DNA from: an uncultured Marinoscillum sp.
GTDB lineage: Bacteria; Bacteroidota; Bacteroidia; Cytophagales; MED-G16
Direction of reading: 5' to 3'
Assembly (NCBI GenBank): GCA_902628365.1
Contig: CACOMW010000002.1
Location: 69,298-112,141 of the forward strand
Length of the DNA stretch: 42,844 nt
Part shown: piece by piece, positions 23,561-27,479 of the stretch
Numbering within the stretch: position 1 is the first letter of the stretch
Layout of the letters: the number at the start of each line of letters is the position of its first letter
Position numbers and translations under genes: made by a program
The notes under the pieces: generated by a model
What the model was told of the DNA's origin: nothing
The model's input: only the letters and a program-made list of their open reading frames with translations
Database searches by the model: none

Positions 23561-25231
23561 ATGGATGTACAAACTTGGACATATATTATAGTTGGAATTA
23601 CTTTTCTAATATATATTTCTATTGCAATTTGGTCAAGAACCTCATCAACTAGTGAATTTTATGTTGCTGGTAAAGGGGTTTCTCCACTTGCTAATGGTAT
23701 GGCTACTGCTGCTGATTGGATGTCTGCTGCATCATTTATTTCTATGGCAGGTATAATTGCTTTTGCTGGGTATGATGGTTCAGTTTACCTTATGGGATGG
23801 ACCGGCGGATATGTATTATTAGCTTTATTGGTTGCGCCATATCTAAGAAATTTTGGAAAATTTACTGTACCTGATTTTATTGGTGAAAGATATTATTCAA
23901 CTTATGCAAGGTTAGTTGCTGTATTTTGTGCTCTTATTGTTTCTTTTACATATGTAGCAGGTCAAATGCAAGGTGTTGGAATTGTTTTTTCTAGATTTTT
24001 AGAGGTTTCTTTTGAGGTTGGTGTAGTTGTAGGAATGGTTATTGTATTATTTTATGCAATTTTAGGTGGTATGAAAGGTATTACCTATACTCAAGTTGCC
24101 CAATATTGCATTTTAATCTTTGCTTTTATGTTGCCCGCTTTTTTTATATCCTTTCAAATGACTGGAAATATTATTCCTCAAATCGGTATGGGTTCTACTC
24201 TTAATGATGGTTCAGGAGTTTATCTTCTTGAAAAATTAGATACATTATCTAGGGAATTAGGTTTTAATGAATATACAACTGGATCAAAATCAATGATTGA
24301 TGTCTTTTGTATTACATTGGCATTAATGGTAGGAACAGCGGGATTACCTCATGTGATAGTAAGGTTTTTTACTGTTCGAAAGGTTAGTGATGCTAGAAAA
24401 TCTGTAGGCTTAGCTTTATTATTTATTACTATTTTGTATACTACCGCACCTGCTGTATCCGTTTTTTCAAAACTTAACTTAATTGAAACAGTAAGTAATA
24501 AAGAATATTCAAAAATGCCTGAATGGTTTAAGAATTGGGAAAATACTGGACTTATTAAATTTGAAGACAAGAATAGTGATGGAATTATAAACTATATAAA
24601 TTCAGATAGAAATGAATTAATAATTAATAATGATATAATGGTATTGGCAAATCCAGAGATTGCGAATCTCCCATCATGGGTTATTGCATTAGTTGCAGCT
24701 GGAGGTCTTGCAGCTGCTCTTTCTACTGCAGCTGGTTTATTATTAGTTATATCTACTGCAATTTCAAATGATTTGGTTAAAAAAATATTATTACCAAAAA
24801 TTAGCCAAAAAAATGAATTAATAATTGCAAGATTTTCAGCATTTTTAGCTGTTCTTATAGCTGGTTATTTTGCTTATAACCCTCCAGACTTTGTTGCGGC
24901 AGTTGTAGCATTAGCATTTGGTCTTGCAGCTGCTTCATTTTTTCCTGCAATAATTTTAGGAATCTTTTCAAAAAGAATTAATAAGGAAGGAGCAATTAGT
25001 GGAATGATTGTTGGAATTACACTTATGTTATTTTATATGATAAAATTTAAGTTAGGTTGGTTTGGAGATATTCCTCCAAAATCTGAATGGTGGTTTGGAA
25101 TTTCTCCTGAAGGTTTTGGATCAATTGCTATGTTATGTAATTTCTGTGTTTCAATAATAGTTTCAACATTATCTTCTCCACCTCCAAATCATATAGAAGA
25201 ATTGGTTAATAAAATAAGAGTTCCAGAATAA
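23561..25231 (+). CDS. Sodium:solute symporter, VC_2705/ActP-like
   Basis: This 556-residue inner-membrane transporter of the SSS family has about 13 helices. The sodium-site helix reads ATAADWMSAASFISMAG, and GITYTQVAQY and AALSTAAGLLLVIS are close to acetate permease ActP. A hydrophilic insert of about 60 residues after helix 7 contains DKNSDGIINY, which has the D-x-N-x-D-G pattern of a calcium-binding loop; I recall this insert as a feature of the VC_2705 subfamily. With the DUF4212 protein it probably imports a short-chain carboxylate or related solute using the sodium gradient. It ends three bases from the convergent fusion gene. Confidence 0.9.
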   Translation: MDVQTWTYIIVGITFLIYISIAIWSRTSSTSEFYVAGKGVSPLANGMATAADWMSAASFISMAGIIAFAGYDGSVYLMGWTGGYVLLALLVAPYLRNFGKFTVPDFIGERYYSTYARLVAVFCALIVSFTYVAGQMQGVGIVFSRFLEVSFEVGVVVGMVIVLFYAILGGMKGITYTQVAQYCILIFAFMLPAFFISFQMTGNIIPQIGMGSTLNDGSGVYLLEKLDTLSRELGFNEYTTGSKSMIDVFCITLALMVGTAGLPHVIVRFFTVRKVSDARKSVGLALLFITILYTTAPAVSVFSKLNLIETVSNKEYSKMPEWFKNWENTGLIKFEDKNSDGIINYINSDRNELIINNDIMVLANPEIANLPSWVIALVAAGGLAAALSTAAGLLLVISTAISNDLVKKILLPKISQKNELIIARFSAFLAVLIAGYFAYNPPDFVAAVVALAFGLAAASFFPAIILGIFSKRINKEGAISGMIVGITLMLFYMIKFKLGWFGDIPPKSEWWFGISPEGFGSIAMLCNFCVSIIVSTLSSPPPNHIEELVNKIRVPE

Positions 25232-25234
25232 AAC

Positions 25235-26734
25235 TTATTTATAAAAAATTTTTTCTTCAATTGATTTCCAAAGTAATAATGATGCTATGGTTTTGTATGG
25301 CTCCCATGAGCTAACTATTTTTTTAAGCTTTTTTTCTGTTAAGTTTTCAATACCATAATTAATTTTTACACTATTAATTAGGGCAAGATCTTTATTTGAA
25401 AAAATATTTATTCTAAATAAGTTAAATATTAAAAACATTTCAGCAGTCCATTTTCCAACTCCTTTAATTTTAGTTAATAAATTTATTACTTCTTCATCAG
25501 ACATTTCTGTTATATTAATATGCTCACTTTTAAAAAACTTGTATACATTTTTTATATATTCAATTTTTCTTTTTGAAATCCCAATACTTTGAAAATGCTT
25601 CGCGGGTAATTTTATAATTTGATTATTAGTTAAATTTTCAATTAATAGATTAAATTTTTTTTTTATAGTAATAGCTGCTTTAAAACTTATTTGTTGTTCA
25701 ATTATTAAATCTGATATTGCTTTTGAAAAATTAGGATTATATCTATCAGTTATATCAATATTTTTTCCAAATTTTGAAATTAAAAATTTCATAATTGGAT
25801 CAGCTTTTAATTTATTTAATTGTTTTGAAAAATTATTATGTTTTTCTAGTTTAAGTTTATCTACTTTTGACTTTATTTTTTTTATTTCCTTTGGACCAAT
25901 TCTACAACAGCCTCCTAAAATATCTACACCTAAATTCAACCATTCATCAATGTATGATTCAAAAGAATGGATTATGTTCCCTTTCCAGATTTTCTTTTCG
26001 CCATCATATTTTTCTCCTGAATTTGGATATATAATAATTTTTTTACGAGTATTTTTTTTAATTACTTTTATCAATTTTGATATATATATAGGAGAAGTAC
26101 AGTTAACTCCAATTGCAAAAACTTTAGGTTGATTTTTTAGAAGTTCACAACATTTTTCTATAGAAGTTCCATCATTTATTTCCTTTTCGTTTCTACAACT
26201 AAATGAAATCCAAGACATTTTTTTAGTATTTTTTAAAATTCTTGATATTACTTTGGTTTCTTTAAAACTAGGTACGGTTTCAAATGCCAGTAAATCTGCA
26301 GTGGATTTATCTAAAAGATCAACTTTATCTTTATAAAATTCGTAAAGTTTTTCATCACTGATATTATTAATCCCTCTATATTCAGAACCATCTGCTAAAG
26401 AAGAGCCATAAGGACCAATGCTTGCCGCTATGATAAAATTTCTATTAGTTTTTTTTTTAACTTGATTTAAAATTTCTATCGAATTCAAAATTATTTTTTT
26501 GGATTTTGATTTATTGTATCCACGATTCTTCAACAAATTAAATGAGGCTTGATAGCTTGAAGAAGTTAAAATTTCAGCTCCAGAATTTAAATAATCAATA
26601 TGTGCGTTTTTTATTACCTTAGGGTTTGATATTAATAATTCAGATACCCATAGGTCTTTTGTAAGGTTGAAACCATTTTTTTCTAATGGGTAAGATAATC
26701 CACCATCTAAAACAGCAGGATAACTAATTTTCAT
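25235..26734 (-). CDS. Homocysteine S-methyltransferase fused to AlkA-type DNA glycosylase
   Basis: This 499-residue protein has two domains. Residues 1-290 are a MmuM-type homocysteine S-methyltransferase: LDGGLSYPLEKNG (9-21), SSSYQAS, SIGPYGSSLADGSEYRG, ISFSCRNEK, and the zinc cysteines Cys212 (GVNCTSP) and Cys276-Cys277 (GGCCRIGP). Residues about 310-499 are a DNA-3-methyladenine glycosylase II (AlkA/HhH-GPD) domain: AISDLIIEQQISFKAA (339-354), helix-hairpin-helix IKGVGKWTAEMFLIF (423-437), likely catalytic Asp449 (NKDLAL), and WEPYKTIASLLLW (477-489). A Lys-rich linker joins them. The first half would methylate homocysteine from S-methylmethionine; the second excises alkylated bases. Its ATG overlaps the upstream nuclease stop (TAATG). 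I know of no described fusion of this kind. Confidence 0.88.
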   Translation of the reverse strand: MKISYPAVLDGGLSYPLEKNGFNLTKDLWVSELLISNPKVIKNAHIDYLNSGAEILTSSSYQASFNLLKNRGYNKSKSKKIILNSIEILNQVKKKTNRNFIIAASIGPYGSSLADGSEYRGINNISDEKLYEFYKDKVDLLDKSTADLLAFETVPSFKETKVISRILKNTKKMSWISFSCRNEKEINDGTSIEKCCELLKNQPKVFAIGVNCTSPIYISKLIKVIKKNTRKKIIIYPNSGEKYDGEKKIWKGNIIHSFESYIDEWLNLGVDILGGCCRIGPKEIKKIKSKVDKLKLEKHNNFSKQLNKLKADPIMKFLISKFGKNIDITDRYNPNFSKAISDLIIEQQISFKAAITIKKKFNLLIENLTNNQIIKLPAKHFQSIGISKRKIEYIKNVYKFFKSEHINITEMSDEEVINLLTKIKGVGKWTAEMFLIFNLFRINIFSNKDLALINSVKINYGIENLTEKKLKKIVSSWEPYKTIASLLLWKSIEEKIFYK

Positions 26735-27479
26735 TATACTTTATTTTTCTTACTTTTCTGAATTAAGTATTCTGTTTCATCTTTCATTTCATTTAATTGA
26801 ACTATATGAAAGGTCAAATAATTTGGATGAAGAATTAATAAGTTCATACTTGAAATTTTTTTGTCATAATTTTTTTCCAAAATATATTTATAAATATTTT
26901 GTTGTAGTGTGTATTTATTATAATCTGTAGAACTAAGATGACTTAACCCTTTTTTTCCATTTTCAAATGGATTTTTATTATCAATAGTTCCATCTTTTTA
27001 ATTATATTTTTACTTCTTTTCCAATCAAAAATAAATAATTCACCTTCTTTTTTTTCATAAACCATGTCAACTGTCCCAGCCAGAAAACTATCTTCATCAA
27101 ATATTTGCCATTCAGTTCTGTAGGGTTTGTATTTATCCTTAATATATTTTTTTTCAAATTCTAAAAACTTTAATATTTCAGTATCTTTTTCATATTCAAT
27201 ATCATTATAATAGTTTTCAATTTGTAAATGCATATTAGTTCCAGCTTCTCGTGCTTTTCTTCCTTTTTTTTCCCACTCTTGAATTATTTCTTCTTTTGTT
27301 ATACCAGTTTTGATACTTTCTTTATTAGCCCAATAATCTTTATCAAAGCGTGGAAAAAAATTACTTATTAATTGTGTGACTGAAATATAATTTTTTTTTT
27401 CATCAACTGAATAAATATGATTTTCTATATCAAATTTTATTCTTTTATCCCTTGGATGAGAATTTTTATCATCTAACAT
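26734..27479 (-). pseudogene. RecB-like PD-(D/E)XK nuclease, split by a frameshift
   Basis: The first frame gives 178 residues from 27479 and stops at 26943-26945. It carries GTNMHLQIE (His84, Glu88), TEWQIF, AGTVDMV (Asp138) and IFDWKRS (Asp152, Lys154), the RecB/MGME1-like nuclease core. After ATT-AAAAA-G (A run at 26999-26995), the -1 frame continues with DGTIDNKNPFENGKKGLSHL, then QQNIYKYIL (a QxxxY motif) and NLLILHPNYLTFHIVQL, ending at TAA 26734-26736. One extra A would join both parts into a 248-residue protein with all nuclease motifs (Q193/Y197). The stop overlaps the fusion gene start (TAATG). It may be a genuine mutation, slippage or a sequencing error in the A run. Confidence 0.8.

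Follow-up and report, generated by a model that had tools for sequence, protein, structure and literature searches.

Results

A single reading frame joins a methyltransferase to a DNA glycosylase

The window, which here means the whole 42,844-nucleotide stretch of DNA that was analyzed, carries on its minus strand a frame of 499 uninterrupted codons that runs from 26734 to 25235 and encodes an MmuM-type homocysteine S-methyltransferase followed by an AlkA/Mag-type DNA glycosylase. An open reading frame analysis of the window reveals many stops on the plus strand of the same interval. The gene and its neighbors are arranged as follows.

23561..25231, plus strand: sodium/solute symporter of the VC_2705 family, the convergent downstream neighbor (TIGR03648, E 2.1e-253)
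25235..26734, minus strand: fusion gene (MmuM-type homocysteine S-methyltransferase, then AlkA/Mag-type DNA glycosylase), 499 amino acids, ATG start, stop included
25238..25819, minus strand: HhH-GPD alkyl-base glycosylase domain, residues 306-499 (PF00730, alignment to 2h56, Foldseek)
25820..25864, minus strand: linker, residues 291-305, within a predicted long helix (281-299) plus a helix at 303-309
25865..26713, minus strand: homocysteine S-methyltransferase domain, residues 8-290 (PF02574, Pfam E 1.9e-69)
26734..27479, minus strand: PD-(D/E)XK-nuclease-like gene upstream of the fusion, frameshifted in the window near 26997-27000

The N-terminal half of the protein matches PF02574 over the entire domain (Pfam, 235.2 bits against a cut-off of 22) and also scores well above the cut-off for the MmuM equivalog PRK09485 (NCBIfam, 324.9 bits, cut-off 215). 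Its likeness to Escherichia coli MmuM (5dmm/5dml, PRK09485) covers the whole 283-position domain, the fold (Foldseek against 5dmm, TM 0.88 by target, 32% identity) and the three zinc-binding cysteines of 5dml, which align with Cys212 (codon 26099-26101, minus strand) and with Cys276 and Cys277 (codons 25904-25909, minus strand). E. coli MmuM is, however, a single-domain protein, whereas the fusion protein adds a DNA glycosylase.

In the C-terminal half, PF00730 is found at residues 344-477 (Pfam, E 2e-7, 31.7 bits against a cut-off of 26.2), and the unfused orthologous glycosylase of a family relative, G007, scores 37.2 bits with the same model. The motif EQQISFKAA occupies residues 346-354 (25673-25699, minus strand) and the helix-hairpin-helix IKGVGKWTAE residues 423-432 (25439-25468, minus strand). 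Both motifs and the catalytic Asp449 (codon 25388-25390, minus strand) line up with those of Bacillus halodurans Mag (2h56), and the hairpin and Asp449 are kept in the aligned relatives. Structural comparison with Foldseek gives TM values of 0.76 for Deinococcus AlkA (2yg8) and 0.83 by target for Schizosaccharomyces pombe Mag2 (4b23). The domain thus shares the HhH-GPD fold, the EQQxSxKAA motif, the hairpin and the catalytic Asp with the short AlkA/Mag glycosylases (B. halodurans 2h56, Deinococcus 2yg8, S. pombe Mag1/Mag2); these are stand-alone proteins of ~200-230 residues, while here the domain forms the C-terminal half of a longer chain and has lost its own start. The AlkA equivalog PRK10308 scores far under its cut-off (NCBIfam, 20.9 against 229). 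Judged by these profiles, the second half resembles AlkA weakly, and we do not claim E. coli-type AlkA identity for it.

An AlphaFold2 model of the fusion protein, built from 48 aligned proteins of the window and the loci, displays two well-formed domains (pLDDT 94, pTM 0.82), in which helix 281-299 extends into the linker and is followed by another helix at 303-309; the model was read domain by domain, and the relative placement of the domains was not interpreted. PF02574 is already known to precede another enzyme within a single chain, in the YitJ-type homocysteine S-methyltransferase/methylenetetrahydrofolate reductase (PRK08645). In that protein the partner catalyzes one-carbon chemistry in the same pathway, whereas the partner in the window is an HhH-GPD protein: Pfam and NCBIfam place no YitJ-type reductase domain in the C-terminal half, and PRK08645 scores 136.2 bits against a cut-off of 453. 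The original prediction, made from the DNA letters, had described one continuous 499-residue frame with both domains and had placed in it the three cysteines, EQQISxKAA, IKGVGKWTAE and Asp449; the profile matches, the alignments to 5dml and 2h56 and a second genome all bear this out, with the frame on the minus strand.

The same fusion is maintained in a second species

A search for proteins covering both halves, which the original prediction had proposed, yielded one more. In a scan of ~85,000 genomes with motifs taken from the window's fusion protein, the one full-length relative was that of AG-343-C10 (uncultured Marinoscillum sp.), with 78% identity over residues 1-499. The same contig was returned by the whole-genome search as G001 (L001/L083), which represents the only other species of the genus among the genomes searched. 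Its fusion frame is 501 codons long and stop-free, its assembly is separate from that of the window, and the two 18-kb regions are collinear with 89% DNA identity. A 499-codon open frame at 24% GC is not a product of chance, and the second species has it in full.

Synonymous divergence between the two fused genes is 0.5-0.7 (NG86), and the MmuM and glycosylase halves each have a dN/dS of 0.19. Between the two species the 15-residue linker is 40% identical and has a dN/dS of 0.65, a value with few sites behind it. By these substitution rates, both halves appear to be constrained by purifying selection and the linker hardly. The known fused genomes number two, one of them 61% complete. These data bear on the idea that one half is a passenger, with a single activity in use and the other half heading for loss, as mmuM or mag was lost in sister lineages. 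The absence of either gene from sister genomes would fit such a course, as would the faster evolution of the MmuM half (77% identity against 82% for the glycosylase half; dN 0.13 against 0.09, window versus G001). However, the equal dN/dS of the two halves and the catalytic residues, which the alignment shows to be kept in both halves of both fused species, speak against it, and we judge it very unlikely.

Neither fused gene has an in-frame ATG, GTG or TTG in the linker ahead of Met315 (the Met of DP(I/V)MKFL), which indicates that mag no longer has a start of its own and that the stop of mmuM has gone as well. A shortened glycosylase could be made from an internal start at Met315. The loss of the separate start in both genes also argues against an assembly or sequencing artefact that joined two separate genes, and so does the independent genome of the other species, in which the same fusion is open across a divergent linker. 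Indel errors in the window's assembly are conceivable, given an A-run frameshift in the adjoining nuclease-like gene, and the overlap region is A-rich as well; nonetheless, an artefact is extremely improbable, and the second genome refutes it for practical purposes. The original prediction had treated a stop or frameshift in the linker, or relatives that always keep separate genes, as signs of such an artefact. There is no such interruption in either fused genome. Separate genes do occur in relatives, though not always, and their presence in sister genomes is what fusion from a gene pair predicts.

The nuclease-like gene and the fusion overlap by one base, shared between the TAA stop of the former and the ATG of the latter. 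The 253-residue nuclease-like protein of G001 matches the window in two frames (tblastn), with a single frameshift at an A-run, after which the C-terminal 85 residues are read in a different frame and are 96% identical to those of G001; this is either a sequencing error or a recent mutation. Recombination or a chimeric junction at the frameshift was considered because identity to G001 is 96% after it and 74% before, and was rejected because DNA identity is even over 18 kb. The protein reaches PDDEXK_1 only under the cut-off (Pfam, E 0.0026) and has no match in NCBIfam.

Four states of one locus in the family

The symporter gene marks the corresponding locus in relatives of the same family, which comprises 15 genomes, with states counted only where the locus could be read. 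In the readable genomes the order is the nuclease-like gene, mmuM and/or mag, and the convergent sodium/solute symporter. In G007 (locus L087) and G012 (L089), mmuM and mag are separate genes in different frames that overlap by 23 and 4 bases, respectively, between the nuclease-like and symporter genes. At the locus of G002 (L085) there is mmuM without mag, and this genome also lacks the third HhH-GPD protein seen in relatives. Seven genomes (G003, G004, G006, G008, G009, G010 and G013) have mag without mmuM. A single family locus therefore exists in four states, namely separate and overlapping, fused, mmuM only, and mag only, with flanking genes identical in kind; the nuclease-like protein (~245-253 residues; L083:743-1504 and equivalents) precedes mmuM and/or mag at every readable one.

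In the MmuM tree, family members group together in a single clade whether fused or not (support 98/96), so that the MmuM half of the fusion is most simply a vertical copy. In the symporter tree, computed without an outgroup, mag-only genomes flank the fused pair on either side, which implies more than one loss or gain of mmuM. Stand-alone MmuM proteins of distant Bacteroidota (L120 (G382), L164-L166 and L185-L187) are 47-51% identical to the fused half, compared with 40-42% for MmuM proteins of its own family. A recent transfer of this half was considered, given the 50% identity to the distant G382 against 40-42% within the family, but the tree, with its family clade at 98/96, does not support it; AT-rich composition was flagged in this comparison. 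The identity gap, despite the family clade, suggests that the unfused family copies have evolved faster.

Beyond the genus, no match spanning both halves was found in 396 phylum genomes, 395 class genomes, the relatives set, plasmids or IMG/VR. When the order sample was searched with the MmuM half, an open frame of ~500 codons was present only in the two known fused genomes. The phylum, class and order samples are partial, and whole-genome sampling was confined to the window's own phylum. One candidate for another fusion, a glycosylase in a 627-residue open frame of G056, is merely a long stop-to-stop frame. Adjacency of mmuM and mag was not seen in the loci read outside the family, where mag or mmuM adjoins other genes.

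Discussion

The present study describes a gene in which two known enzyme families are combined in what is apparently a new way. The original prediction had called such a fusion undescribed; this seems to hold, as no paper on an MmuM-glycosylase fusion was found in the literature searched, and the domain pairing is apparently undescribed. It is a recognized pattern that overlapping neighbors in one genome have fused homologs in another (PMC3711429). Sister genomes with separate, overlapping mmuM and mag genes, together with those in the single-gene states, support fusion by the merging of neighboring frames, and comparison of the loci suggests that the gene most likely represents the merged frames of two overlapping operon neighbors. 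In this model, the ancestor of the family would have had the nuclease-like gene, mmuM and mag arranged head to tail. In the genus lineage, small indels at the overlap would then have deleted the stop of mmuM together with the start of mag, bringing both genes into one frame. Fusion would have occurred once, in the window's genus, while other lineages would have lost mmuM or mag. The direction from pair to fusion, rather than fission, would be the simplest by parsimony, where the separate pair is known from two genomes only and the symporter tree is without an outgroup.

In the MmuM reaction, homocysteine receives a methyl group from S-methylmethionine. MmuM has served as a positive control (PMC12366255), and age-damaged (R,S)-AdoMet can also be used by homocysteine S-methyltransferases (PMC6302742). 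DNA, in turn, is methylated by SAM without an enzyme, and the 3-methyladenine so formed is cleared by AlkA (PMC7051996). By homology, the N-terminal half of the fusion protein would transfer methyl groups from a sulfonium donor, S-methylmethionine or (R,S) S-adenosylmethionine, to homocysteine, yielding methionine, and the C-terminal half would excise alkylated purines such as 3-methyladenine; we infer both activities, with their donors and lesions, from the two families.

These chemistries share a theme, which raises the question of whether functional coupling was selected, with the methyltransferase clearing methyl donors that are reactive or damaged by age, and the glycosylase removing the methylated bases that result. 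Both the nonenzymatic methylation of DNA by SAM, with clearance of 3-methyladenine by AlkA (PMC7051996), and the consumption of (R,S)-AdoMet by homocysteine S-methyltransferases (PMC6302742) are compatible with such coupling, as are the adjacency of mmuM and mag behind the nuclease-like gene in two unfused relatives and the purifying selection that keeps the fusion in two species. However, mag occurs without mmuM in seven relatives and mmuM without mag in one (G002, which is also without the third HhH-GPD protein), and because each gene persists without the other in sister genomes, coupling is unsupported. Moreover, the adjacency was not seen in the loci read outside the family, channeling is impossible when one substrate is a small molecule and the other is DNA, and the linker is poorly conserved. 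Selection for coupling is therefore unlikely, and it is quite unlikely that a single protein physically couples the prevention of endogenous methylation damage to its repair, by removing reactive methyl donors (S-methylmethionine or age-damaged S-adenosylmethionine) and also mending the DNA lesions that they cause. The original prediction had raised the possibility that detoxification of methyl donors is linked to lesion repair, which finds no direct support when sister genomes carry mag only (seven), mmuM only (one) or separate genes (two); its alternative, a neutral fusion, fits these states better.

Collectively, the data make it probable that this is a genuine bifunctional gene that arose by frame fusion of overlapping neighbors and whose domains are independent. 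The halves most likely work independently, so that fusion would fix only a 1:1 ratio and co-expression. There may nevertheless be one consequence for gene content: because the mag start was lost, any loss of mmuM would now harm mag, and fusion may possibly preserve a gene that sister lineages have lost.

One genus of small-genome marine Bacteroidota carries the fusion while sister bacteria have separate, overlapping genes. Cooperation between the two halves, if it exists, would tie the turnover of sulfonium methyl donors in marine bacteria to the repair of alkylated DNA; otherwise, the protein cautions against reading joint function from fusion. With four locus states in one bacterial family, the path from overlapping operon neighbors to a bifunctional gene can be read directly.
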